Shown: positions 2,453 through 53,977 of the stretch, one piece after another
Position numbering within the stretch: the stretch's first letter is position 1
Layout: every line of letters begins with the position of its first letter
NCBI GenBank assembly: GCA_001767495.1
Contig: MELA01000107.1
Location: 18,971 to 73,415, forward strand
Origin: Acidobacteria bacterium RIFCSPLOWO2_12_FULL_65_11
GTDB taxonomy: Bacteria; Acidobacteriota; Vicinamibacteria; Vicinamibacterales; CAVVIG01
Direction of reading: 5' to 3'
DNA: 54,445 bases
Notes under the pieces: generated by a model
The model's input: the letters and a program-made list of their open reading frames with translations, nothing else
Databases searched by the model: none
Told to the model about the DNA's origin: nothing
Position numbers and translations under genes: made by a program

Positions 2453-2893
2453 CTACAGGATAAGCCGCTTGATCCCTTCTTTCAGAAGACGTGAGTTGAA
2501 GTTCATGAGCAGACCGACCCGCTTGCCTGTCAGCCGAAGGTACGTCAGCAGTTGGGCTTCGTGAACAGGACTCAAGTGCTCGACGCACTTCACCTCTACC
2601 AGCACGAGATCGCCGACTACGAGGTCGACACGGTACTCGCCGAGCAGTCTGCCCTTGTAGTAGGCAGGAATGCGTGTCTGCCGAACGAACGACATGCCGC
2701 AGTCTTCCAGCTCGATGCACATCGCCGACTCGTAGATCTGCTCGAGCAGGCCCGGACCGAGTGCGCGATGAACGTCGATGGCACATGCGATGACTCGCGA
2801 CGTGAACAGATTGATTTGATCGATTTGTATGTTTCGTGTGTCTTGTGTGCTTTGGGTCTTCTCCGTGTCTTTGTGGCTCTGTGGTTCATTCAT
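2453..2893 (-). CDS. GxxExxY family PDDEXK-like protein
   Basis: A 146-aa protein of the GxxExxY family (PDDEXK_3 clan). The signature GPGLLEQIYE lies near residue 46, and a nuclease-like core YRVDLVVGDLVLVEVKCV supplies the D...ExK residues. The molecular role of the family is not established. The first 20 or so residues (MNEPQSHKDTEKTQS) are encoded by the CACAGAG/CACGGAG repeat that flanks the cassette, so the native domain probably starts near IQIDQINLFTSRVI. Its ATG overlaps the methylase TGA by 4 nt (ATGA). It therefore behaves as the third gene of the helicase-methylase operon, although it may have arrived by insertion. Confidence 0.9.
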   Translation of the reverse strand: MNEPQSHKDTEKTQSTQDTRNIQIDQINLFTSRVIACAIDVHRALGPGLLEQIYESAMCIELEDCGMSFVRQTRIPAYYKGRLLGEYRVDLVVGDLVLVEVKCVEHLSPVHEAQLLTYLRLTGKRVGLLMNFNSRLLKEGIKRLIL

Positions 2894-5800
2894 CTCTGCG
2901 ACCTCCGTGTCCCTGTGGCGAAAAGACGAAAGGCAGCGTCGCGCGCCTCCTGCGGGATCAGCGGGAACGTCGAGAGGACGTGCGCGAACTCGTCGGTCGT
3001 CAACTGATAGAGCTCGGCGACCCGCGCCTGCAGACGCGCGAAGACGAGGGGATCGAGATGACGCCCGCGCCGCGTCAGCAGCCTCGCGAGTGAGGCCACT
3101 TCACGGACGGCTGCGGGCGCGGCGTCGCGCGTCGGGATCGGCAGGTGCTCGACTGTGGCCGTGGTGACGTGCAGCGTCACCTGCAGCCGCACCAGGAAAT
3201 TGACCACGAAGCTGTTGAACAGCCCGCACAGATATTGCTGATCCCGGAGGGCGAGCGGCGAGCGCAGGCAGAACAGCGTGTGGGTGGAGACGCAGCCGGC
3301 CGGCAGGATCGCGGCGATGAGCGTCACGCGGTTCGTGGCGCCCGCAATGTCGCGGTACGCCAGCCGCGGACGTAGGTAGCGGCCATCGGGCAGCAGCCGA
3401 TGCGCCTCGCGAGAGCGGATGGCGTGTCGAGCCGACCCCAGATCCACGTCGAACGGCTGGATCTGTTTCCCCTCGACAATCGGCAGCCCTGCCCCCGGCG
3501 CACAGAAGGATCCGCGATCGTCGGTGGCGTTGAGCTCGCGGCCAAACCGCACCGACCAGCCGGACGGACTGCCGAGCGAGGGGAACAGCGCAGCGGCTCG
3601 TTCTGCGATGGCGAGATCCGTCGGCGTCTGCACCCACGGAATCGTCAGGTCCGGGCCCGACAGCCGATCGAGCACCGCCGGCGTGAGCCGGCTGACGAAC
3701 CACCGGGAGGACGCTGCCGGCTCTTCGCCGATCGATTCGAGCTCGGAGGGGTCGTCGAGGCCGAACCGGCAGGCGATCGAGCTCGTCGGCCGGCCGGTGG
3801 ACGCGGTCAGCAGCAGGAACCGGACCCCGCGGTGAATCGGGAACACACCGCGCCGGTTGTCGAAGCCGACGAGGGTGTCAACGTCCGAGCGGGCGAGGAG
3901 CAGGCGACGCAGCGAGGCGCTGCCGCGATCGGCGGCGAGACCCCATGGCAGCACGAGGCCCAGGCGTCCGCCGGCGCGGGCGAGCGAGCGCGCGCGCTCG
4001 ACAAAGAGCTGGTAGCGATTCGCGTGGCCGTCGGACTGAGCGCGGTAGATGCCGGCGTCGCGCGTGAACCGCATCATCAGGGCAAGGCCTTCTCGCGCGT
4101 GGCTCCTGACGTCTGTCGTTCCCGTGTCGGCGCGAATCATGTCCCACGGCGGGTTGCCAATCACGGCGTCAAAGCCTCCGTTGGCCAGGCGTGCGCCGTC
4201 GGGCGCGAAGAATACTTCGGGAAACTCGAGCTCCCAATGAAAGAACCGTCGCGCCCCGGCAACCTCTTCGCTGGCGCACAGATAGTCGCGTGTGGCTTGC
4301 GGCGGGAGCGAACCGCCGCCGGTCAGGATGGCGTCCGACAATGCACCGAACGCGGCGGGCGGCACCCCACGATCGGCCGACTGGAACCACGAGGCGCACC
4401 AGAGATCTGCGACCCGCTTCCAACGAGTGAGCGCTGAGTCTCGGCTGTTTATCGTGGCAAGCGCCCGCTCCTTGGCGCGCACGCTCTCGATCGTGTCGTT
4501 CGGCATCGACTCGAGCGAGAAGCGCACGGGCACGGCGGCGCCGAGCGCGTCATTGAAGCCAGGGAAGCGCGGCTCGTCAAACAGGGGCAACTCCTCTTCG
4601 ACCGAGGCTCGGCGCCCTCGCGCACGATGCGGCAGGCGACCGAGCGATGCGACCCACGCGCCGAGCAGACTGTCGCCAACGGCCAAGCGATGGTCGAGAA
4701 AACTGAGCGGTCGATCCGCCGCGAGCGTCGTCAGCCACAACGAGAGGCGGGCGAGTTGAACGGCCACTGGATTGAGGTCGACGCCGTACAGGCAGCGCTC
4801 GGCAATCGAACGGCGGACCGCGGCGCGGTCTTGGTCGCCAAGATCGCCCGGCCGACAGCCGCCCGTCTGGATGAGCGCCGCCTCGTACGCCCCGGCAAGA
4901 TAGCGGCACGCGGCGACGAGAAAGGCGCCGCTCCCCATCGAGGGATCGACCACGCGCAGCTGCAGGATGCGATCGGGTGTGGCGTCGCGGACGAGCGGAC
5001 CGAGCGTTCGGCGGACGAGGTACTCGGCGATCGGTTGAGGCGTGTAGAACGTGCCGGTGGCCTTGCGGACCCCGGAGCCTGGGATCAGCGTGACAGACGG
5101 GCGTCGGCCTCGGCCATGGCCCTTTGTAGTGTCCGGCTTCAGCCGGACCGTGGACGTCACGTGCGGTACGTAATCGAGCAGCGTCTCGTACACCGCCCCG
5201 AGCTGCTCGACGCCGAGATCGCGGTACGCAATCGGCTCACGTCCGGCGCGATCGGTCGACGGGCGCGTCGACAGCGCCAGGATCGCCCGCTGCGCCGCGC
5301 CATCGTCGAGATCGCGTCGCTCGGCGAGCGGCGTCCGCGCCGGCGCGAACAGGCGGCCGTTGAACGGCGTGACGCGGAGATCGCCGGCGCGGCATCCAGC
5401 GTGGGCGAGACGCGCCATGGCCCGCAGGGCGTCCCAAAGCCCCGGTGCGCCCTGCGGGTGTTCGGCCGCCTCGCGCAGAGCCTGCACGCTGTAGCTGTCG
5501 CGGTACACGGGGTGCCACAGAGGTACGAGGGCGCGCGCTTCGGCGAAGAGCAGAAAGACGATGCGGTAGACGATGGTGAGCGCCTGATCGAAGGTGTCGT
5601 CGAGCGTGAACGGGTGTCTCGTGGTCTGAGGCCGGACGAGCGCGTTGAGGACGTCGGCTGATGCGGCCAGCACGCCGTCCTTGAGGGACCGGCACACACC
5701 CGACGCGTGACGATCCGAGGCTTCGACCAAAACGTGAAGCGGTGTTCCGGTCCGCCTGAAGGCGGACACTACATCGGATTGCGGAACGGTTGCGGTCCGC

Positions 5801-6381
5801 CTAACCGCGGACACGACATCGGATGGTGGAGCGGGTTCCAGATCGCCGGAGGGCGAGTTGGTGAGTCCGTGCGCGCTGACGACGGCCAGAAAGGCGGCGA
5901 AGGCGCGCGGGTCGTCGAGGGTCAGATCCAGGTCGAACTCGATGTGTCGGCGCGCGAAGAGGCGTGCCGCATCGATGGCTCGGAGATGCGTGCCGTTGAA
6001 CAGAAGGCACCAGGGTGCGGATCGTGCGAGGGCCTCGGTGACGGCCGTGCGCCACAGCGGGTCGAGACGATCGCCCCACGATGCGACGAGCAGCGCCGTG
6101 GGGCGCGGGCCCCCGCGCAGGACGGCGGCGATCGACCGGTCGGCCGGTCTGATGTCCGACGGCGGATCGAATCCGAGCGCCGCGACGAGCGGCGCGGCGC
6201 CGACCTGCAGCATGGCGTGCACACTCGACGCGGGCCCGAGCGCCGCCGACCCTCGCCGCCACGCGACCAGCTCGCGATAGACGCGATCGATGAGCCGGTT
6301 GGTCTCGGCATTCCCGATCGTCGGGAGATAGGCTTCGAGGAACGCTTCCGAGACGAGATGGCCGGAGAGACCGGGGATCAT
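2890..6381 (-). CDS. Eco57I-like N6-adenine DNA methylase / putative restriction-modification protein
   Basis: Large (1163 aa) protein resembling type IIG and BREX/DISARM-type adenine methylases. Residues 1-170 form an N-terminal region that could hold a degenerate nuclease domain (WCLLFNGTHLRAID). The pre-methylase motif GTFYTPQPIAEYLVRR is near 443, the SAM-binding motif I VDPSMGSGAFLVAA near 478, and the catalytic NPPW tetrad near 743. The C-terminal 350 residues resemble target-recognition regions. Three palindromic repeats are translated in frame (about residues 188-212 and 410-420). The last nine residues (ATGTRRSQR) are repeat-encoded, so the native C-terminus may be lost. It starts 25 nt after the helicase stop with TGAGGTTAGG before ATG. 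Function inferred: DNA modification in a defence system. Confidence 0.88.
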   Translation of the reverse strand: MIPGLSGHLVSEAFLEAYLPTIGNAETNRLIDRVYRELVAWRRGSAALGPASSVHAMLQVGAAPLVAALGFDPPSDIRPADRSIAAVLRGGPRPTALLVASWGDRLDPLWRTAVTEALARSAPWCLLFNGTHLRAIDAARLFARRHIEFDLDLTLDDPRAFAAFLAVVSAHGLTNSPSGDLEPAPPSDVVSAVRRTATVPQSDVVSAFRRTGTPLHVLVEASDRHASGVCRSLKDGVLAASADVLNALVRPQTTRHPFTLDDTFDQALTIVYRIVFLLFAEARALVPLWHPVYRDSYSVQALREAAEHPQGAPGLWDALRAMARLAHAGCRAGDLRVTPFNGRLFAPARTPLAERRDLDDGAAQRAILALSTRPSTDRAGREPIAYRDLGVEQLGAVYETLLDYVPHVTSTVRLKPDTTKGHGRGRRPSVTLIPGSGVRKATGTFYTPQPIAEYLVRRTLGPLVRDATPDRILQLRVVDPSMGSGAFLVAACRYLAGAYEAALIQTGGCRPGDLGDQDRAAVRRSIAERCLYGVDLNPVAVQLARLSLWLTTLAADRPLSFLDHRLAVGDSLLGAWVASLGRLPHRARGRRASVEEELPLFDEPRFPGFNDALGAAVPVRFSLESMPNDTIESVRAKERALATINSRDSALTRWKRVADLWCASWFQSADRGVPPAAFGALSDAILTGGGSLPPQATRDYLCASEEVAGARRFFHWELEFPEVFFAPDGARLANGGFDAVIGNPPWDMIRADTGTTDVRSHAREGLALMMRFTRDAGIYRAQSDGHANRYQLFVERARSLARAGGRLGLVLPWGLAADRGSASLRRLLLARSDVDTLVGFDNRRGVFPIHRGVRFLLLTASTGRPTSSIACRFGLDDPSELESIGEEPAASSRWFVSRLTPAVLDRLSGPDLTIPWVQTPTDLAIAERAAALFPSLGSPSGWSVRFGRELNATDDRGSFCAPGAGLPIVEGKQIQPFDVDLGSARHAIRSREAHRLLPDGRYLRPRLAYRDIAGATNRVTLIAAILPAGCVSTHTLFCLRSPLALRDQQYLCGLFNSFVVNFLVRLQVTLHVTTATVEHLPIPTRDAAPAAVREVASLARLLTRRGRHLDPLVFARLQARVAELYQLTTDEFAHVLSTFPLIPQEARDAAFRLFATGTRRSQR
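5125..5149. repeat. GTCCGGCTTCAGCCGGAC palindrome inside the methylase gene
   Basis: Exact copy of the window's main palindrome family (TGTAGT followed by GTCCGGCTTCAGCCGGAC). It lies in frame within the methylase and encodes the peptide VRLKPDTT near residue 412, between the N-terminal and methylase domains. Confidence 0.9.
5749..5823. repeat. Two tandem palindrome copies inside the methylase gene
   Basis: Two related units, GGTCCGCCTGAAGGCGGAC and GGTCCGCCTAACCGCGGAC, each followed by AC(T/G)ACATCGGAT. They are read in frame as SDVVSAFRRTGT and SDVVSAVRRTAT near residues 187-213. The second copy has diverged so that its hairpin is imperfect. Confidence 0.85.
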
Positions 6382-6406
6382 CCTAACCTCAGGGGATGAA
6401 ATCGGT

Positions 6407-9088
6407 TCAGGGCGTCAGCACGAGCAGAAGCACGGCGTCGGTCGGCGACAGCACGGCGGCCTGCTCGAGGACCTCGATCGTTGCGGCCCACTCGAGATCC
6501 CGATCGCCTTGGGCGGCGAGGATGGCCAGCCGCGCGTGTTCGCTGCGGCGGTCGAACAGACCCGGCTGGAAGATCGTGGGTACCGAAGGGTCTGTCGCGC
6601 CGATCGCACGCGCTCGATTCAGCCTGGCGCCTATGAATGCAGAGTGGATCTCAGAGGCTCGTTGCCGCCACGCCGTCGCGGCCAGATCAACGGTTCGCTG
6701 AATGTCTGCATCGAGGCTACACAACAGATCCCATGTAGTGTCCGCCTTTGGGCGGGCCGTGTCGGTCCGGCTGAAGCCGGACACTACAGCCTCGGACACT
6801 ACAGCCTCGGACACCACAGCCTCGGACACTACGGCTCCAGGGCCGGCCAGTTCGATGAGCAGGGGCACGAGAACCGAGCCGGCCGTGCATCGCGCGCCAG
6901 CGGCGCCGGCCTCCATGCCGGCCCGGCACAACAGCAGCAGTCGCCGTCCGAGCGCCGCGCGGGTTTGCGACCGACGCGCCGCCGCCAGACACGGTCCACG
7001 CCCGTCGACTTGGGCCAGCGCATCTTGGTCGCCCGCGTGCAGGAGCGCCCGCGCGCGGACAATCCGCTCGACCTCGGCCCTGGCATCAGCGGCCAGCGCC
7101 GGCGTCACAAGGTTCTCGTCGGCCGCACCTCCATTTGTTGTCGCCTCAGTTGTAGTGTCCGGCTTGAGCCGGACCCCTGTAGTGTCCGGCTTCAGCCGGA
7201 CCTCGACTGGGCCTTCAGCTGTAGTGTCCGGCTTGAGCCGGACCTCGACGGCCGTCTGCTCGATGACGGCTCGCGCCATGGCACCTTCCTCGGTTATCTC
7301 TTCATCCATCCCCAGCGGATCGGGCGCGCCGATGTCGGCCTGCGCTCGAGCCATGCGCTCCTCGAGCCGGGCCAGGATCCGCGGCTCGCTGCTGCCGCGC
7401 GCGATCAAATGAAACGCGTGCACGGTCCGCATCTGGCCGATGCGATCGACGCGCCCAATGCGCTGCTCGAGCCGCATCGGGTTCCACGGCAGCTCCAGAT
7501 TGATGACGGCGCGGCAGGCGTGATGGAGATTGAGCCCCTCGCCGGCCGCGTCGGTGGCCAGCAGGACGGACGACAGGCCCCGCGTGAACTCGCCGATGGC
7601 GGCAAGACGCTCGTCGCGCGTCAGTCCGCCATGGAGCTGTGACACACGACTGTGGAGCGACGCACGCAGGTGAACGAGCGTGTCGCGGTATTCCGTGAAC
7701 ACAATCGCCGGCTCGTCAATTCGGCGAAGCAGGCGACCCAAGGCGCCGATCTTTGTCTCGTCACGGGTCGCCTCAGCCGCGGCGGCTGCGAGCTCGCCAA
7801 GCATCTGCCGCTCGCGCGAAGGATCTCGCAGGCCAAGGGCCGGGGGCCACGCCGGCGGCAGGTCGGCTGTTGTGAGCTCGCCGGTCGTGTCGATGAGGGG
7901 CAGCTGGATCTGGCCCTCTTCATCGGCGCCCCTCGACGCGAGGGCGGCGAGCCGCCGCTCGACCGAACGCTGAAGCGACCGGGCGCTCGACAGCGCGCGC
8001 TTGTGCAGCACGGAAAGGGCCAGCCAGATACCGGAGTTCTCGGGGTTCGCGCGGTTCGCAGGGTTCCCGCGGTGCGCAAGGTTCACCGAGCGTGCCCGGC
8101 CGTGCTCGTGTTGGACGGCTCGCGAGAAGCGCGCGAGCAGCGCATGCATGCGCGCTTCGGCGGCGCTCGGGCGGACGAACAGTCGATGGATCCGGCGGGG
8201 TGTGCCAAATCGGACGTCCGCGCGCGTGCGGCGAAAGAGCAGGAGCCGATCGCCTGGAGCGGTGCCGAGCGCGCCGAGCCGGCACAGAGAAACAAACGCG
8301 CGGCGATCGCCGCTGTGGGGTGTGGCCGTGAGCAGCACGACGAACGGCGCGCGCGAGGTGAGCGCGGCGGCCGCCGCGTGCCGGTCGCTGTTGCCGGCCA
8401 CCCCATGCGCTTCGTCGACGATGACGAGATCCCAGCGGCAGGCGGCGACGCTCGTCAGAATGTCCGCGCGCCTGACGTAATCGATCGACGCGATGGCGAC
8501 GGGCGAGGTTCGCCACGGGTTGACGCCGACCCTCAGCGTGGCCACCGCGCGCCTCACGGCGCGCGCGTCGAGAATCGTCGCGTCGATCTCGAAGCGATCG
8601 GCCAGCTCGCGCGCCCACTGATCGCGAAGGCCTGGCGGCGTGAGAATCAGCACCCGGTCGGCCGCGCCGAGCGCCTGCAGCTCGGACACAATCAACCCGG
8701 CTTGAATTGTCTTGCCCAGCCCGACCGCATCGGCCAGCAGGACACGGGATCCCAGACCGCGGAGAAGCGCCAGCGCCGGCTCGAGCTGATGCGGGAGCAG
8801 ATCGATGCGCGCGCGGCGGGCGCATCGCAACCCGCCGGGCGGCGTCTCTTGGGCGACGAGCGCCCGGCACACGCGCCGCCACAGGCGCATGGAGATGTGC
8901 GTCGGCCGCCTTCGGCGCTCGATGCGCTCGAGGATGTCGAAGGGGGCCAGCATGCGGCGCTCGGCCCGCGCGTTGGCCGGGTCGATGCCGGTGAGGGTGA
9001 AAAGCTGACAGCTCTCGTACAGCCGAATGTCAGCGACCCGCCACCGAGCGTGCCGCGCGCGGACGACATCGGTTCGCAGAATCTGCAT
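6407..9088 (-). CDS. SNF2-like superfamily 2 DEAH helicase/translocase
   Basis: An 893-aa superfamily 2 ATPase of the SNF2/RapA type, expected to translocate on DNA. Landmarks: Walker A region LLADAVGLGKTIQAGLI (residues 117-133), DEAH box LVIVDEAHGV (221-230), motif III VLLTATPHSG (251-260), and helicase C motifs VFTEYRDTL (463), LLATDAAGEGLNLH (509) and motif VI EQRIGRVDRIGQ (541-552). The C-terminal 280 residues are poorly conserved and carry in-frame palindromes (615-645 and 751-785) plus a short Asn-rich tandem at 340-352. It is the first gene of an operon with the methylase, 25 nt downstream. A SNF2 helicase next to an adenine methylase recalls class 1 DISARM (DrmD, DrmMI), but drmA, drmB and drmC are absent. 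Confidence 0.92.
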   Translation of the reverse strand: MQILRTDVVRARHARWRVADIRLYESCQLFTLTGIDPANARAERRMLAPFDILERIERRRRPTHISMRLWRRVCRALVAQETPPGGLRCARRARIDLLPHQLEPALALLRGLGSRVLLADAVGLGKTIQAGLIVSELQALGAADRVLILTPPGLRDQWARELADRFEIDATILDARAVRRAVATLRVGVNPWRTSPVAIASIDYVRRADILTSVAACRWDLVIVDEAHGVAGNSDRHAAAAALTSRAPFVVLLTATPHSGDRRAFVSLCRLGALGTAPGDRLLLFRRTRADVRFGTPRRIHRLFVRPSAAEARMHALLARFSRAVQHEHGRARSVNLAHRGNPANRANPENSGIWLALSVLHKRALSSARSLQRSVERRLAALASRGADEEGQIQLPLIDTTGELTTADLPPAWPPALGLRDPSRERQMLGELAAAAAEATRDETKIGALGRLLRRIDEPAIVFTEYRDTLVHLRASLHSRVSQLHGGLTRDERLAAIGEFTRGLSSVLLATDAAGEGLNLHHACRAVINLELPWNPMRLEQRIGRVDRIGQMRTVHAFHLIARGSSEPRILARLEERMARAQADIGAPDPLGMDEEITEEGAMARAVIEQTAVEVRLKPDTTAEGPVEVRLKPDTTGVRLKPDTTTEATTNGGAADENLVTPALAADARAEVERIVRARALLHAGDQDALAQVDGRGPCLAAARRSQTRAALGRRLLLLCRAGMEAGAAGARCTAGSVLVPLLIELAGPGAVVSEAVVSEAVVSEAVVSGFSRTDTARPKADTTWDLLCSLDADIQRTVDLAATAWRQRASEIHSAFIGARLNRARAIGATDPSVPTIFQPGLFDRRSEHARLAILAAQGDRDLEWAATIEVLEQAAVLSPTDAVLLLVLTP
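6734..6831. repeat. Palindrome cluster plus 15-bp tandem inside the helicase gene
   Basis: One divergent palindrome, one full palindrome (GTCCGGCTGAAGCCGGAC), and then four near-identical units of CTCGGACACTACAGC (one with ACACCACAGC). All are translated in frame on the minus strand as repeated VVSEA followed by VVSGFSRTDT, at residues 751-785 of the helicase. Confidence 0.88.
7151..7243. repeat. Three palindromes in a row inside the helicase gene
   Basis: Three copies of TGTAGT plus GTCCGGCTT(G/C)AGCCGGAC at 7151-7175, 7178-7202 and 7219-7243. Each is translated in frame as VRLKPDTT (helicase residues 615-645). The spacers keep frame, so the ORF stays open through all three. Confidence 0.92.
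8041..8085. repeat. 9-bp GTTCGCNNG tandem inside the helicase gene
   Basis: About five degenerate 9-bp units (GTTCGCGCG, GTTCGCAGG, GTTCCCGCG, GTGCGCAAG, GTTCACC), read on the minus strand as an Asn/Pro-rich linker (GNPANRANPE) between the two helicase lobes. The 9-bp period preserves the frame. Confidence 0.7.
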
Positions 9089-22655: not shown

Positions 22656-22816
22656 GGTCCGCCTAAAGGCGGACACTACGTACGCCCTGTAATACGTACG
22701 CCCTGTAATACGTATGCCCTGTAATACGTATGCCCTGTAGTGTCCGGCTTCAGCCGGACCTGTCAGTCCGCCTAAAGGCGGACACTACAGTGGTCTGCCG
22801 GAAGGCGGACACTACA
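22656..22816. repeat. Palindrome cluster with a 16-bp tandem repeat
   Basis: Fills the E2-lipB gap. Palindromes lie at 22656-22680, 22737-22760, 22765-22790 and 22792-22816 in both orientations. Between the first two are four units of ACGTA(C/T)GCCCTGTAAT (22678-22741). The tandem unit resembles palindrome ends, so it probably arose by slippage at the repeat border. Confidence 0.9.
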
Positions 22817-22831
22817 TGCTGATCCCGACAC

Positions 22832-23509
22832 ATGAATCGACCAGTTGAAATCCGAAGGCTCGGGCGCGTGCCGTACGCCGACGCGCTGGCGCTGCAGCAC
22901 ACGCTCGTCGAAGATCGGCGCGCCGGGCGCGTGGACGACGTGCTGTTGTTTGTCGAACATCCGCACGTGTTGACGCTCGGCGTCGGCGGCGACGGCGGCC
23001 GCTCGCACATCCTCGCGCCGGCTGAGGCGCTGGCCGGCCGCGGCGTCGAGGTGCACGAGACCGGCCGTGGCGGCGACATCACCTATCACGGTCCGGGGCA
23101 GATCGTCGGCTACCCGATCGTCGATCTGCGGCCCGATCGCTGCGACGTCCATCGCTACGTGCGGGACTTGGAGGACGTGCTCATCCGAACAGCCGGAGAC
23201 TACGGCGTCTTGGCCCATCGGGTGGACGGCCTGACGGGCGTGTGGGTGGGGGATGAGAAGCTGGCGGCCATCGGTGTCCGCATCGCGCGGTGGGTCACAA
23301 GCCACGGGTTCGCGATGAACGTCACAACAGACCTCGCGTACTTCGATTTGATTGTCCCCTGCGGCATCTCCGGCCGCGGCGTGACGTCGCTCGCGCGGCT
23401 CGTCGGCCGCGCGGTCGATCGAGCCGAGGTCGAAGACCGAATCAGCCGGCACTTCTGCGATGTCTTCGAGAGAGTCCGGCTGAAGCCGGACACCACGTAC
23501 GCCCTGTAG
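22832..23509 (+). CDS. lipB: Octanoyl-[acyl-carrier-protein]:protein N-octanoyltransferase LipB
   Basis: A 225-aa enzyme that transfers octanoate from ACP to lipoyl domains, the first step of lipoate synthesis. Signatures: GRGGDITYHGPGQIVGYPI near residue 74, VWVGDEKLAAIGVRIARWVT with the catalytic Lys, and HGFAMNVTTDLAYFDLIVPCGI with the catalytic Cys. The last 12 residues (RVRLKPDTTYAL) come from a palindrome plus one tandem unit, so the original stop codon has been replaced by repeat sequence. It follows the E2 gene, a direct functional link. lipA is not in the window. Confidence 0.96.
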   Translation: MNRPVEIRRLGRVPYADALALQHTLVEDRRAGRVDDVLLFVEHPHVLTLGVGGDGGRSHILAPAEALAGRGVEVHETGRGGDITYHGPGQIVGYPIVDLRPDRCDVHRYVRDLEDVLIRTAGDYGVLAHRVDGLTGVWVGDEKLAAIGVRIARWVTSHGFAMNVTTDLAYFDLIVPCGISGRGVTSLARLVGRAVDRAEVEDRISRHFCDVFERVRLKPDTTYAL

Positions 23510-23529
23510 TGTCCGCCTTCAGGCGGACC
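23473..23529. repeat. Two palindromes at the lipB 3' end
   Basis: GTCCGGCTGAAGCCGGAC (from 23474) is translated as the lipB C-terminus. After a single tandem unit and the stop codon comes a second palindrome, GTCCGCCTTCAGGCGGAC, ending at 23529. Confidence 0.9.
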
Positions 23530-23627
23530 CGACGCGATCTCCTTGGATAAACGCCAATCAATCAATCGGTTACAGCATCGACTGGGATTCCAGGAATATC
23601 CAAACCCTCCAAGGTGTTCTTCTCCGC

Positions 23628-24251
23628 ATGCGGAATCCCCAGGACGACACCCTTCTCACGCGGCTGCAGGCAGGCGACGAGCGAGCGATCGCAGAGCTGG
23701 TTGACGCATACGGCGCCAAGATTCACCAGCTCGCGTTCCGGTACCTGCGCAACAAGGAAGACGCCGAAGAAGTCGCGCAGGACGTGCTGTACAAGGTGTA
23801 CCGCAACGTGGGCTCGTTCCGCGGCGATGCCGCGCTTTCCTCCTGGATTTACCGGATTACCTTCAACCAGGCGATGTCCCGGCTGCGCACGGTGCGCTAC
23901 CGGCAGGCGAAGACTGACGACCAGCTCCTGCGCGCGGCCGAGGGCGACGAGCCGATCCGGTCGTCTCACCCGGATGTGGCCGACTGGAGCGACATGGCCG
24001 ACGAGCAGATCTTTCGGGCGCAACTGCGCCGGCGCGTGCACCACGCCATCCTGGCGCTGCCGGCGATCTATCGCGCGCCGGTCATGCTGCGCGACATCCA
24101 GGGCATGTCGACCGAGGAAGCAAGCGCCATGTTGCGGGTGAAGGATCAGACCCTCAAATCGCGCCTGCACCGGGACCGGCTGATCCTGCGCAGGCAGCTC
24201 GCCGAGTTTGCCGGCGGCCTGACGCTGCATCGGCCGATCTACGGCACGTAA
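23628..24251 (+). CDS. ECF-type RNA polymerase sigma-70 factor
   Basis: A 207-aa sigma factor. Region 2 (about 20-90) includes LAFRYLRNKEDAEEVAQDVLYKVYRNVG and SWIYRITFNQAMSRLR. Region 4 (about 130-190) includes ALPAIYRAPVMLRDIQGMSTEEASAMLRVKDQTLKSRL... as a helix-turn-helix for the -35 element. No anti-sigma gene lies next to it, since the next genes are remnants on either strand. Its ATG (23628) is the first good start after the repeats. Its regulon cannot be inferred. Confidence 0.93.
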   Translation: MRNPQDDTLLTRLQAGDERAIAELVDAYGAKIHQLAFRYLRNKEDAEEVAQDVLYKVYRNVGSFRGDAALSSWIYRITFNQAMSRLRTVRYRQAKTDDQLLRAAEGDEPIRSSHPDVADWSDMADEQIFRAQLRRRVHHAILALPAIYRAPVMLRDIQGMSTEEASAMLRVKDQTLKSRLHRDRLILRRQLAEFAGGLTLHRPIYGT

Positions 24252-24255
24252 CCGT

Positions 24256-24341
24256 ACGTAACCTAATCGCACGTAACCTAATCGCACGTAACCTAATCGC
24301 ACGTAACCTAATCGTACGTAGTGTCCGGCTTCAGCCGGACC
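24256..24341. repeat. Four 15-bp tandem units followed by a palindrome
   Basis: Four exact or near-exact copies of ACGTAACCTAATCGC (24256-24270, 24271-24285, 24286-24300, 24301-24315, the last ending in T). The palindrome TAGT plus GTCCGGCTTCAGCCGGAC follows at 24318-24341. As at 22678-22741, a short tandem array abuts a palindrome beginning with ACGTA. Confidence 0.92.
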
Positions 24342-24354
24342 GAGTTCGCCCCTG

Positions 24355-24871
24355 TCAACAACCCTTCCAATCCCCGCCATCGAGTGCATTCGGTAGCTGC
24401 TTGATGATGTCGCGCAGAAACCGCGACATCTGAAGGTCGACCCGATACACGTTGGCCTCGACCGCGAGACCCATCCGCATCGCCTCACCCGTTGCGGCGC
24501 TCGTCGCGCGCGAGATGACGAGCGTTTTCTTGGACCTCGTGATTGACACGTAGAAGAGCCGGCGCTGCTCTTCGAGGTAGTCCTCTTCCGTGCCCGGGTA
24601 TTCGTCGCGGCGCCGGCCGGGGATCGCCTCGTCGCAGGTCCCGAGCAGGTAAACATGTTCCGCGGTGACACCCTTCGCGCCCCACATCGTTGCCACTTGG
24701 ACGTTCGGGCGCCGCGAGCCTTTCCTGGTGGAGGATGCGCTCGACGCGCCTGGCCAAGCCAAATGTCTTACCCGTGCCGGGTCCTGCCTCGACGCGGATT
24801 GTCTGCGCTTCCGCGTTGATGAGTGGCAGCACCTGCTCGCCGCGGACGCCGCTGTTCCAGGATTCGGCCAT
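24355..24871 (-). pseudogene. UvrD/PcrA-type helicase remnant
   Basis: Two pieces of one UvrD-like superfamily 1 helicase in different frames. Frame one (from ATG 24871) has the N-terminus with Walker A VEAGPGTGKTFGLARRVERI. Frame two (about 24733 to 24355) has the C-terminal region VATMWGAKGVTAEHVYLLGT, EEDYLEEQRRLFYVSITRSK and KTLVISRA. The central 400 or more residues, including the DExx box, are missing, and the frame shifts at the junction near 24730. It cannot be a working helicase. It overlaps the start of the next remnant on the other strand. Confidence 0.85.
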
Positions 24872-24924
24872 CGAGGCACCTAGCCTCCTTCCCGGTTGCT
24901 CCGTCGCGCACTGGCCTACCTCGC

Positions 24925-25541
24925 GACTACGCTGAGACGCTCAGCGAAATCAAGCAACGCATCCAGCAAGAGCGCCTCCGCGTCGTGCTGGCCGCCAATT
25001 CGGCGATGGTTCTTCTGTACTGGGACGTCGGCAAAATGATCCTGGACCGCCAGGAACACGCCGGCTGGGGGCCAAGGTCATCGATCGCCTCTCCGCAGAC
25101 CTGCGTGAAGCCACCCCCGAGATGCAGGGGCTTTCGCCGCGAAACCTCAAGTACATGCGCGCCTTTGCCGCCGCATGGCCCGACCGCAGGATTGTGCAAC
25201 GGGTCATTGCACAATTGCCCTGGCGCCAAAATATCGCCCTGCTCGAACGCCTCAACGACGAGCAGACGCGACTGTGGTACGCCGAGCAAGGGGTGCGGCA
25301 CGGGTGGTCGCAGCCCATTCTCTGCCTGCAGATCGACAGTCGAGCCCACGAACGCCGCGGCAAGGCCCTCACCAACTTCAAGGCGACCCTACGCGACAAC
25401 GTGCGCGCTCAACTGCGGGTGATCGTGAAGCGCATTCTTCGCAAGTACGGCTACCCGCCAGACAAACAGGAGAAGGCGACACAGACGGTGCTTGAGCAGG
25501 CGGAGGTGCTGTCGGAACTGTGGGCAGCCCAGAGTGAATAG
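24925..25541 (+). pseudogene. DUF1016 (YhcG-like nuclease) remnant fused to an HsdR C-terminal tail
   Basis: The first part matches the DUF1016 N-terminal domain: [20 protein letters not shown] and [19 protein letters not shown] in one frame, then [20 protein letters not shown] and [18 protein letters not shown] in the next. A one-base loss in a G run near 25070 causes the shift. The PDDEXK nuclease half is absent. After KATLRDNV the sequence becomes [20 protein letters not shown] and [15 protein letters not shown], which matches the end of type I restriction subunit HsdR. It is therefore a frameshifted fusion of two defence-gene fragments. Confidence 0.82.
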
Positions 25542-25588
25542 AACGCTTACCAATGCCCCTGGTCCTCGCCCGACTACCGGAGTGCCGA

Positions 25589-25613
25589 GGTCCGCCTGAA
25601 GGCGGACACTACA
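25589..25613. repeat. GTCCGCCTGAAGGCGGAC palindrome
   Basis: A single palindrome copy between the DUF1016/HsdR remnant and the 3' end of the dehydrogenase-like gene. It overlaps the latter's stop codon region by about 5 nt. Confidence 0.9.
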
Positions 25614-26448
25614 ACTGCATGGCGTTATCGAGCGCCACACGCTCGGCGACACCGAGCGGGGGCAGCACCACCTCGAGGCGTGACGGTCCGAGCCTGACGG
25701 GGAGTGCGGCGGTTCGGGTGCGCGCACCGGAGGACTGATCCGGAGCGACAAAACAAATCGTGACGTGCTGAGAGTGTCCGGCCAGCGCGTCGATCACTTT
25801 CGAGGCCGCTGAGGCGAGCGCAAACGGACCAGGCGGCCACAGCGCGCCGATCCGCTGGGCGAGCCGTCGCCGTACGGGCTCGGTGACGAGCCGCGTCATC
25901 GCCCATCCGGCCACGGTCGCATCTTCCCACCCGATGACCATCCGATCCGGCGGCACGCCGATGACCGACAGCGCCACCTCGCGGGGCGACGCGTCGAGCT
26001 CGAGCGCCACGATCGCGCGGGCGGCGGCGGCGAGCGCTTCGGGCGCCGATCCGATGATGCGCGCACGCGGGATGTCGAGCTCGCCGACGCCGCGCTCGAT
26101 GAGCTGGCGCTGCTCGGGGCCGGCGCACACGATGAAGGCATCCGGCGCAGATCGCGCCAGGCGCTTGAGGAGCACCACTCCATCGTCACCTGCCCACTCG
26201 CCAACGCCTCGCCGGTCGGCGACCACCACAACGTCGGCGCCTGCCGCGTCGGCGATCTCGGTCGAGCCGGAGACGATTGTCGCGAAGCCCTCGATGGCCC
26301 CCGCCTGCGTGATATCGAGCGCCTGGCCCTCGGCCGCGCGTCCGGCCTCGTCTATCAGTCGAATCGAGCGCGCGGATGCACGGCGCGCGAGCAGGTGCGC
26401 GAGCATCCCGCCCAGCTCGCCGGCTCCAATGATGGCGACCTCCTGCAT
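25609..26448 (-). CDS. Lactate/malate dehydrogenase-like protein, probably inactive
   Basis: A 279-aa protein with the fold pattern of LDH/MDH enzymes. The Rossmann start VAIIGAGELGGMLAHLLARR is followed by RLIDEAGRAAEGQALDI, the Asp that binds NAD ribose, and ADVVVVADRRG. The catalytic half is not conserved. Where MDH/LDH have G-x-H-G-D the sequence is VIGVPPDRMVIGW, without the proton-relay His, and the partner Asp (L-D-x-x-R) is replaced in LAAAARAIVALEL. It is shorter than the usual 310 aa. It may bind NAD without reducing a keto acid. It is transcribed divergently from the SDR gene. Confidence 0.78.
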   Translation of the reverse strand: MQEVAIIGAGELGGMLAHLLARRASARSIRLIDEAGRAAEGQALDITQAGAIEGFATIVSGSTEIADAAGADVVVVADRRGVGEWAGDDGVVLLKRLARSAPDAFIVCAGPEQRQLIERGVGELDIPRARIIGSAPEALAAAARAIVALELDASPREVALSVIGVPPDRMVIGWEDATVAGWAMTRLVTEPVRRRLAQRIGALWPPGPFALASAASKVIDALAGHSQHVTICFVAPDQSSGARTRTAALPVRLGPSRLEVVLPPLGVAERVALDNAMQL

Positions 26449-26532
26449 GCGTGCGCTATTGTATGCGGGGCGGCTTGGTCGGTGACGCTCTGTTCTAGAT
26501 ACGCCGAGCGCTGCGGCGCGAAGGCGTCATCG

Positions 26533-26577
26533 AGCGGGGGTGGGGCCCCGCGAGCATAAAGTAATGTGGGGCCCCAT
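26533..26577. repeat. GGGGCCCC inverted repeat
   Basis: TGGGGCCCCGCGAGC and the nearby TGGGGCCCCATGCG lie in the dehydrogenase/SDR divergent spacer. Their sequence matches copies near 650-672 and 14446-14500, including the adjoining GCTCGCGGGGCCCCACATTA. Confidence 0.7.
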
Positions 26578-26591
26578 GCGAAATTAATTAA

Positions 26592-27323
26592 ATGCTGACA
26601 ACTCTCCAGGGCAAAGTCGCCCTCGTCACCGGCGGGTCGCGGGGGATTGGCTTCGCCATCGCTCGTGCGCTCGTTGCCGACGACGTGCAGGTGGCGATCG
26701 CAGGTCGCACGAGCTCCGCGCTTTCGGCCGCGCGGCAGAAGCTGGAGCGCGCCGAGCCTGGTGGACGCAGTCGGGTCGAGACGGTGACGGCCGACGTGCG
26801 CCGCTACGCCGAAGCCGAGCGCGCCGTGGCGGCGGCGGTCGCGCGCTTCGGGGGCCTCGATATCCTGATTAACAATGCCGGCGTCGGCGTGTTCGCCGAG
26901 GTGGCCGAGATGACGCCCGAGCAGTGGGCCGAGATCATCGACACCAATCTCACCGGCGTGTACAACACCACTCACGCGGCGATCCCCTATCTTCGTCGCC
27001 GCGGGGGCGGGTTCATCATCAACATCAGCAGCCTGTCGGGCAAGAACCCCTTCGCCGGAGGCGCCGCGTATTGCGCATCGAAGGCCGGGCTCAACGCCTT
27101 CAGCGAGGCGCTGATGCAGGAGCTGCGCTACGACGACATCCGGGTCAGCTACGTCATGCCCGGCTCGGTCGCCACCGAATTTGCGGACGGTGACGCGGCC
27201 AAAGGCGCCGATTGGAAGATCGCGCCGGCCGAGGTTGCCGACGTGGTCCGCAACCTGCTTTGCCACGATCCGCGCAGCCTCCCGAGCCGGGTCGAGCTGC
27301 GGCCGACCAAACCCAAGAAGTAG
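26592..27323 (+). CDS. Short-chain dehydrogenase/reductase (SDR)
   Basis: A 243-aa classical SDR that should oxidise or reduce an alcohol/ketone with NAD(P)(H). The cofactor motif TGGSRGIG is near residue 14, the NNAG motif near 93, catalytic Ser in NISSLSG near 144, and the YCASK catalytic Tyr/Lys near 156. An Arg after the first strand (AGRTSS) favours NADP. The substrate is unknown. The stop codon TAG is the first triplet of a palindrome (TAGTGTCCGG), so the repeat has set the 3' end. Confidence 0.95.
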   Translation: MLTTLQGKVALVTGGSRGIGFAIARALVADDVQVAIAGRTSSALSAARQKLERAEPGGRSRVETVTADVRRYAEAERAVAAAVARFGGLDILINNAGVGVFAEVAEMTPEQWAEIIDTNLTGVYNTTHAAIPYLRRRGGGFIINISSLSGKNPFAGGAAYCASKAGLNAFSEALMQELRYDDIRVSYVMPGSVATEFADGDAAKGADWKIAPAEVADVVRNLLCHDPRSLPSRVELRPTKPKK

Positions 27324-27342
27324 TGTCCGGCTTCAGCCGGAC
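27321..27342. repeat. Palindrome carrying the SDR stop codon
   Basis: TAGT plus GTCCGGCTTCAGCCGGAC. Its first three bases are the SDR stop codon, and its end lies 11 nt before the next start codon. Confidence 0.92.
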
Positions 27343-27352
27343 GGTAAAAATC

Positions 27353-27607
27353 ATGTCTGTCTTCGACAAACACCGCGACACGCTCGAGCAGCACGAGACG
27401 ATGATGGGAAGCTCGCGCGGGCGGCTGGCGGTCGCGCTCGACCTCATCACCGATTCGCTCGCGCTCGTCGGCCAGCACGGGGTGTATTGCCGGAGCGAGC
27501 GATTCGCCGGCAGGCCCCGGATGGATATCGCGCTCATCCTCGAGCGGCTCGATGACGCGAAAGAGCTCGTGCAGAGCGCGATGGAAGAGCTGCGTCCGCG
27601 TACGTAG
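27353..27607 (+). CDS. Hypothetical helical protein
   Basis: An 84-aa protein not recognised. It is predicted to be almost entirely helical (MSVFDKHRDTLEQHETMMGS, LAVALDLITDSLALVGQHGV, MDIALILERLDDAKELVQSA). It sits between two palindromes: one ends 11 nt before its ATG, and the next supplies its TAG stop. It is probably co-directional with SDR and the kinase-like gene. A role cannot be proposed from sequence. Confidence 0.7.
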   Translation: MSVFDKHRDTLEQHETMMGSSRGRLAVALDLITDSLALVGQHGVYCRSERFAGRPRMDIALILERLDDAKELVQSAMEELRPRT

Positions 27608-27627
27608 TGTCCGGCTTCAGCCGGACC
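27604..27627. repeat. Palindrome carrying the stop codon of the small helical gene
   Basis: ACG TAG T plus GTCCGGCTTCAGCCGGAC. The TAG of the repeat is the in-frame stop of the preceding gene, and the kinase-like gene starts 7 nt after the repeat. Confidence 0.92.
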
Positions 27628-27634
27628 GTCGTCC

Positions 27635-28477
27635 ATGCTTGAAACCCTCGGCCAGTACAAGATCCTCGATCGGGTCGGCGCCGGCCGGATGGGCGAGCTC
27701 TATCGCGCCCGCGACACCCGTCTTGGGCGCACGGTCGCGATCAGAGTGCTCGCCGCCGATCTCGTCTCCGATCCGGAGCGGCGCGAACGGATTCTTGGCT
27801 GCGCCCGCGCGGCCGCCGCGCTGTCGCATCCCAACATCGCCGCGCTTTACGAAATCGGCGAAGACGCCGGGCGCCTGTTCCTGGTGCACGAGTTTACTGC
27901 CGGCGAGCCGCTTCGAAGAATCATCGGCGGCCAGCCGCTCAATCCCCGCCGCGCGATCGACCTGGGCTCTCAGATTGCCGACGCGCTCGCCGATGCCCAT
28001 GCCGAGGATCTTGCGTGCGGCGCCCTCACGGCCGGAAACATCGTCGTGACGCCGAAGGGGCACGCGAAGGTCCTCGACTTCGGTCTGGCCGGCGCGACCA
28101 CCGGCGCCTCCGGCGAGCAGGCGGGCGGCGAGCCCGGTGACCATCGCCACGACATCGTCTCGCTTGGCGCTCTCTTGTTCGAGATGCTGACGGGCAAGCC
28201 CTTTTCGGGCACCGCCCACGGAGTGGTGCCCGATGAGCTCGGCCCGATCGTGATGAAGGCACTCGGCATCGGCGGCGACGGCCGCTACGAGTCGGCGGCC
28301 ACGCTTGCCGCCGAACTCCGGGCCGTGGCAGCCGTGCTCGACGTGCGTGCGGCCGCGGCCGCGCCGGCGGCCGTCGCCGCGGTTGTCAGACACGCGCCCG
28401 GGTCGTCGTTTGGATGGATTTGGCTTGCGCTTCTCGCCGGCGCGATCGTCGCCGCGGTGTGGTACTTGCGATCGTAG
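27635..28477 (+). CDS. Serine/threonine protein kinase homologue, predicted pseudokinase, membrane-anchored
   Basis: A 280-aa protein of the bacterial Hanks-kinase family. The glycine loop VGAGRMGELYRARD and the DFG motif (VLDFGLAGA) are kept. The ATP-binding Lys of VAIK is Arg (VAIRVLAADL), the helix-C Glu appears lost (RILGCARAAAALSHPN), and the catalytic HRDLKPxN is DLACGALTAGN. The GTxxYMxPE activation segment is missing, with a shortened loop in its place. The C-terminal membrane segment WIWLALLAGAIVAAVWYL places the domain in the cytoplasm. It is a likely ATP-binding or scaffolding pseudokinase. Its TAG stop abuts another palindrome. Confidence 0.88.
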   Translation: MLETLGQYKILDRVGAGRMGELYRARDTRLGRTVAIRVLAADLVSDPERRERILGCARAAAALSHPNIAALYEIGEDAGRLFLVHEFTAGEPLRRIIGGQPLNPRRAIDLGSQIADALADAHAEDLACGALTAGNIVVTPKGHAKVLDFGLAGATTGASGEQAGGEPGDHRHDIVSLGALLFEMLTGKPFSGTAHGVVPDELGPIVMKALGIGGDGRYESAATLAAELRAVAAVLDVRAAAAAPAAVAAVVRHAPGSSFGWIWLALLAGAIVAAVWYLRS

Positions 28478-28607
28478 GTCCGGCTCAAGCCGGACACTAC
28501 AGCCTGATGTTGTCCGCCTTCAGGCGGACCTTCCGGGTCCGGCTCAAGCCGGACACTACGAGCGTTATGTGTGTCCGCCTGATGTAGTGTCCGCCTTCAG
28601 GCGGACC
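28476..28607. repeat. Cluster of four palindromes
   Basis: Alternating GTCCGGCTCAAGCCGGAC and GTCCGCCTTCAGGCGGAC copies with CACTACAGCCTGATGT and similar spacers, filling the gap between the convergent kinase-like and receiver genes. They could form strong bidirectional terminators. Confidence 0.9.
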
Positions 28608-53636: not shown

Positions 53637-53977
53637 GGCACCAGACCGGCAGGGGCGACGCGTCGGTCGCCCCTGTTCCAGTCAACCAGCTTCCTCCAGC
53701 AATCAACGCGGAAGATGGCGTCTACAGCGTTTTTCACAACGTCGTAGTACGTAGTGTCCGGCTTTAGCCGGACCGGCGCGCGGTCCGCCTGAAGGTGGAC
53801 ACTACAGCGTTGTGAGAAGCGCATTAGATCCTCTTCCGGAAGTCAGGCGCAAGCATTGAGCTGTTTGCGGCCATCGCCCAGCTCGCGGAGGGAACGCGTC
53901 AGTACAGGCCGCGATAGCTTTTTGGCATGATGCTGCGATGTCACGGCGTATGATGCAGCTTCTAAGGGAGGGTTCGA
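53637..53977. other. Intergenic region with nested palindromes
   Basis: A 340-nt spacer. A pair of oppositely oriented palindromes (GTCCGGCTTTAGCCGGAC and GGTCCGCCTGAAGGTGGAC, 53750-53806) is flanked by outer arms TTTTCACAACGTCGTAGT and ACTACAGCGTTGTGAGAA (about 53731-53818), so the whole can fold as one long hairpin. Likely a terminator for the dehydrogenase. The rest holds no ORF I recognise. Confidence 0.7.

Follow-up and report, generated by a model that had tools for sequence, protein, structure and literature searches.

The window analysed here is a 54,445-nucleotide stretch of DNA within contig 107 of a 3.55-Mb genome that is assembled in 153 contigs and whose relatives, by name, are Acidobacteria and Vicinamibacterales metagenome-assembled genomes and one Luteitalea. 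Two ORFs on its minus strand are the subject of this report. The first (2890–6381; 1,163 aa) encodes an Eco57I-type, DrmMI-like DNA methyltransferase (the methylase), which matches Eco57I in Pfam (6.7e-21) and DrmMI in PADLOC (5.3e-99), and the second (6407–9088; 893 aa) encodes an SNF2/DrmD-like helicase with Helicase_C and SNF2 matches in Pfam. The best matches of the pair in the defence library are DrmMI for the methylase and DrmD for the helicase, the latter scoring 276.6 bits against the curated NCBIfam equivalog model DISARM_DrmD, under its cut-off of 610. Among 60 relative genomes, homologues of the methylase were found in 50 and of the helicase in 59, many as adjacent pairs. Given how widespread the pair is and how far the helicase falls under the DISARM cut-off, the label ‘defence gene’ is only a guess; because most relatives carry the pair, it may be a lineage-wide system rather than an accessory defence island. 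The two genes (2890–9088 in the window) are common to most Vicinamibacterales relatives, in which they often adjoin. A 9/18-nt tandem repeat of the GTTCGCGCG type at 8036–8084, also within the helicase gene, is unrelated to the palindromes described below.

The preliminary description of this locus reported three palindromes in the methylase and about five in the helicase, all in frame and free of stops; this was confirmed, and eight copies, three and five respectively, can now be given coordinates. In the methylase, the copy at 5126–5148 (plus strand; antisense reading VRLKPDTT, aa 412–419) lies in a variable linker before the methylase core, and three homologues (L192, L195 and L197) align without it. 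The copy at 5750–5772 (minus; sense reading VVSAFRRT, aa 204–211) is an insert found only in the window sequence, and it is paired with a degenerate copy with three mismatches at 5795–5817 (minus; sense reading VVSAVRRT, aa 189–196). In the helicase, a copy with two mismatches at 6735–6757 (plus; antisense reading ARPKADTT) forms an inverted pair with the one at 6765–6787 (minus; sense reading VVSGFSRT), which homologues lack. The other three, all on the plus strand with the antisense reading VRLKPDTT, lie at 7152–7174, at 7179–7201, as a direct repeat of the first at a distance of 27 nt (9 codons), and at 7221–7243, 42 nt (14 codons) from the second. The VRLKPDTT and VVSxFxRT peptides previously described were thus found, the former four times and with a diverged variant, ARPKADTT, and the latter as VVSAFRRT and VVSGFSRT, with VVSAVRRT as a variant. 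A 15-nt tandem repeat detected in the helicase by Tandem Repeats Finder (6778–6832; CGGACACTACAGCCT ×3.7), read in frame as (AVVSE)n, has grown out of the head of the adjoining palindrome.

The preliminary description also proposed a comparison with homologues and a mapping of the inserts onto surface loops, and the comparison bore out its view of the palindromes as insertions. The helicases of relatives align across both palindrome regions (approximately aa 612–650 and 752–786) without the inserted segments. Alignments of methylase homologues break at approximately aa 175–213, the site of the palindrome pair, with matches that stop near aa 164–182 and restart at aa 208–219; the alignment shows an insert unique to the window protein at this site and, at aa 412, a linker that is hypervariable. 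Judged from these alignments, the palindromes are in-frame insertions that are missing from homologues of both proteins. In AlphaFold models, the inserts fall in segments with pLDDT below 50, at residues 594–662 and within 682–808 of the helicase and at residues 176–211 and 411–426 of the methylase. Both models are weak overall (mean pLDDT of 63.7 and 55.8), in particular the C-terminal part of the helicase and the methylase as a whole, so the predicted placement of the inserts in low-confidence linkers serves as supporting evidence only.

What had been described simply as a palindrome is a GTAG REP that has its own RAYT. The consensus is GTAGTGTCCG(G/C)CTTNAG(C/G)CGGAC, with a looser form, GTAGTGTCCG(G/C)CTNNAG(C/G)CGGAC, that covers the eight gene copies; 499 exact copies are present in the genome, compared with 0 for a reversed-pattern control. 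In the window, a scan with the consensus that allowed up to three mismatches gave 36 matches, whereas shuffled sequence gave 0.15 on average. The base composition of near-exact copies, position by position, shows the tetranucleotide GTAG at one foot of the palindrome with a conservation of 0.96–1.0. The unit of approximately 23–25 nt folds into a hairpin with a perfect 7- to 8-bp stem (−8 kcal/mol, z ≈ −4.9) that is stable as single-stranded DNA. Copies occur as 148 singles and 110 pairs, and adjacent REP pairs are inverted in 117 of 179 cases, with 6 nt as the commonest spacer. The window also contains dense intergenic REP clusters, including alternating inverted arrays, at 22657–28606 and 53756–53800, and one REP lies near the 3′ end of the ORF at 22868–23506.

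The whole genome contains one Y1_Tnp gene, which scores 90.5 bits against the NCBIfam model REP_Tyr_transpos (NF047646; cut-off 80) and is accordingly a RAYT. It lies at positions 1447–1950 of locus L031 (G000 C123:32838–36095), with two REPs adjoining its 5′ end and inverted REPs adjoining its 3′ end, and this RAYT locus with its flanking REPs is likely to be a REPtron. Four features of a GTAG REP were found: the head, a dispersed high copy number that is mostly extragenic, an arrangement as singles and inverted pairs (BIME/REPIN-like) and a REP-flanked RAYT. The palindromes are a GTAG REP family together with its likely REPtron. A literature search for VRLKPDTT or for the palindrome sequence returned no relevant paper.

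The REP was found in 26 of 120 relative genomes, and its presence is associated with that of the RAYT: it occurs in 8 of the 9 genomes whose RAYT shows 50% identity or more, versus 18 of the 111 others (Fisher p = 1.4e-5). The nearest relative with a RAYT shows 71% identity at that gene. In a genome from another family of the same order (G107), the RAYT (C243:4005–4370) has REPs on either side, at 3977, 4554 and 4629. No RAYT match was found in some REP-bearing relatives (G011, G012 and G022), whose assemblies are fragmented. Among 396 genomes sampled from the phylum Acidobacteriota, the REP is confined to Vicinamibacterales. Mobilization of the REP by the RAYT of the genome would most likely explain its presence.

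Genome-wide frame use was profiled in a sample of 2.21 Mb (141 stretches including the window; 62% of the genome), in which a purpose-written codon-usage caller predicted 1,877 genes covering 85% of the sequence. The sample contains 465 REP copies, 325 of which are intergenic, 51 across gene ends and 89 within genes, a within-gene share of 19.1% as opposed to 83.6% under random placement. Interior copies, defined as those with 30 codons or more between them and either gene end, number 70 and occur in 42 of the 1,877 genes. Their frames read VRLKPDTT (22 copies), VVSGFSRT (18), RSVRLQPD (16) and GPAEAGHY (10), and the two stop frames account for three copies and one, in which the stop has been lost. 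By contrast, the stop codon lies inside a REP at 46 gene ends, at 24 of them as the sense-strand TAG. REP stops are therefore common where little harm results and missing from gene interiors. The pattern is one of mobile REPs inserting and of stops and frameshifts being removed. When coding potential on the two flanks was tested without regard to frame, only ten cases were usable.

These counts bear on the suggestion that the translated copies are themselves selected, as an RPE-like element with one favoured insertion frame and a tolerated or useful peptide, which we consider very improbable. VRLKPDTT and VVSGFSRT are indeed the two commonest peptides, and substitutions in the VVSGFSRT frame lean towards synonymous ones (10 of 21, versus 28% expected; p = 0.049). 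However, use of the four open frames shows no significant difference (chi-square p = 0.24 by copy and 0.28 by insertion cluster), frames are mixed in 10 of the 53 insertion clusters and genes are strongly depleted of copies. Moreover, the synonymous excess was not found in the other frames and was reversed in one; since it reaches p = 0.049 in one frame only, synonymous selection is not claimed. Across the 2.21 Mb, the frame counts do not suggest that any one translated frame is selected. The preliminary description had pointed to such selection and to frames that avoid the TAG of the repeat. Avoidance holds for the eight copies, as it must in any uninterrupted ORF, and elsewhere stop-reading copies occur at gene ends. 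It had also held that random frames together with frequent stops would argue against selection: the open frames are indeed evenly used, whereas stops are absent from gene interiors, as purifying selection and the definition of an ORF would bring about.

Pfam scans of 30 further REP-bearing genes revealed housekeeping functions, and the link to defence genes drawn in the preliminary description was rejected on this basis. Carriers include SMC, PurH, PabB, Lhr, a MiaB/RimO-type radical SAM enzyme, threonine synthase, Lnt, LigD, ThyX, ThiF, ABC and MFS transporters, kinases and penicillin amidases. Most copies lie between Pfam domains, and others lie in domain matches longer than the profile, as in PurH, in which the match spans 341 residues for 311 profile positions. 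An SMC-like gene (L125:13511–17425, minus strand) contains four in-frame REPs, two of which fall within the match to the hinge domain.

REPs might instead serve these genes as RNA or DNA, as mRNA hairpins or as protein-binding or recombination sites, with translation incidental. Elsewhere, REPs act in termination, in mRNA stability and in topology (reviewed in PMC3733652), and most genic copies here keep intact stems. We nevertheless consider such a role very improbable, as homologues without the inserts indicate that the gene family has no need of them, and neither a position rule nor an orientation rule was found among the interior copies (37 sense and 33 antisense). An artefact, whether spurious ORFs or tandem or chimeric repeats from metagenome assembly, is scarcely credible: the genome is fragmented, repeats are hard to assemble, and some short ORFs with a REP near an end may be misannotated, but the genes with inserts are long and conserved and have Pfam matches to either side of them, and the same REP occurs in many independent genomes.

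The account that very probably holds is that RAYT-mobilized GTAG REPs insert throughout the genome and that those surviving in genes are the in-frame, stop-free copies at tolerated sites, with the peptides as by-products. The REP would be a non-autonomous mobile hairpin, mobilized as single-stranded DNA by the RAYT of the genome, and its copies would land everywhere. Those in genes would survive only if the frame is kept, no stop is read and the extra residues are tolerated, as they may be in inter-domain linkers, loops and hypervariable segments. The three sites in the window with more than one copy would have arisen by further insertion or by local duplication, an order of events that we infer. 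The VRLKPDTT, VVSGFSRT, RSVRLQPD and GPAEAGHY peptides would most likely be neutral or mildly costly.

Among the points against this account is an observation that simple neutral insertion does not predict. The A of GTAG is lost in 21 of 73 interior copies (29%) versus 22 of 325 intergenic ones (7%; p = 1e-6), a fourfold higher frequency in genes, whereas changes in the stem or loop (27% genic versus 18% intergenic) do not differ significantly (p = 0.1). Codon amelioration was not supported as the cause: the frames that put the A in the wobble position (12 of 41) and those that put it first in the codon (6 of 28) lose it at similar rates, and codon preference therefore offers no explanation. 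In the Stenotrophomonas maltophilia system, the A of GTAG matters for cleavage (PMC8266576). In a 2013 survey, the GTAG-20 elements of Opitutus terrae, the species richest in intragenic GTAG REPs, are mostly GTGG-headed (PMC3733652). Head loss could possibly reflect selection against active REPs in genes, or the copies in genes might be older or belong to a subfamily headed by GTGG or GTCG. A stronger version, which we regard as doubtful, is that genic REPs have been domesticated: the GTAG head would be specifically eroded and the stem kept, stopping RAYT cleavage in essential genes and fixing the peptide insert. If so, a first step from mobile palindrome to protein sequence would be visible here.

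These results add Acidobacteriota to the bacteria with REP insertions in protein-coding sequence, and do so with a high frequency of such insertions; scaled from the 42 carriers in 62% of the genome, 65–70 genes would contain a REP genome-wide. Such genes provide a natural test set for the tolerance of proteins to random inserts, and a test of the trade-off between RAYT/REP spread and gene damage and of whether genic copies are inactivated. The insertions also account for the odd VRLKPDTT-type peptides in proteins of this lineage, a possible source of error in annotation and structure prediction.

The preliminary description proposed an equivalent of the Rickettsia palindromic elements (RPEs), and in several respects the likeness stands: the palindromes lie in frame in many unrelated protein genes, homologues lack them, and both elements are probably selfish and tolerated. 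The Rickettsia guanylate kinase with an RPE insert is translated and active (PMC2229807). However, RPEs are about 100–150 bp long (PMC2229807, PMC3767692) and the present unit is approximately 23–25 nt; RPEs belong to the Rickettsia and Wolbachia lineages and the present hosts to Vicinamibacterales in Acidobacteriota; and RPEs, which include two CGTC-tagged families in the 2013 classification (PMC3733652), differ from the present element in that it is GTAG-tagged, RAYT-linked and open in four frames.

The closer likeness is to published GTAG REPs, and the phenomenon is not new in kind, because intragenic copies have been reported. Di Nocera et al. 2013 describe GTAG REPs inside ORFs of several species, for example, Opitutus terrae, Thauera and Xanthomonas, note the TAG stops that REPs supply and draw the likeness to RPEs (PMC3733652). 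The present family shares with those elements the GTAG head, the perfect short stem, the occurrence as singles, dimers and groups, the RAYT association, the in-frame copies in conserved genes and the TAG stops from REP ends. It differs in its stem and loop sequence, which the available text of that survey does not name, in its Vicinamibacterales (Acidobacteriota) host and in the frequency of interior copies (42 of 1,877 sampled genes). Like the S. maltophilia group 3 REPtron (TnpAREP-Sm; PMC8266576), it is a short perfect palindrome with a GTAG head that flanks its transposase gene; it differs from that REPtron in its stem and loop, and its cleavage by the present RAYT is putative. The element is therefore a new, heavily intragenic GTAG REP family in Vicinamibacterales, a further instance of a phenomenon that is itself already known.
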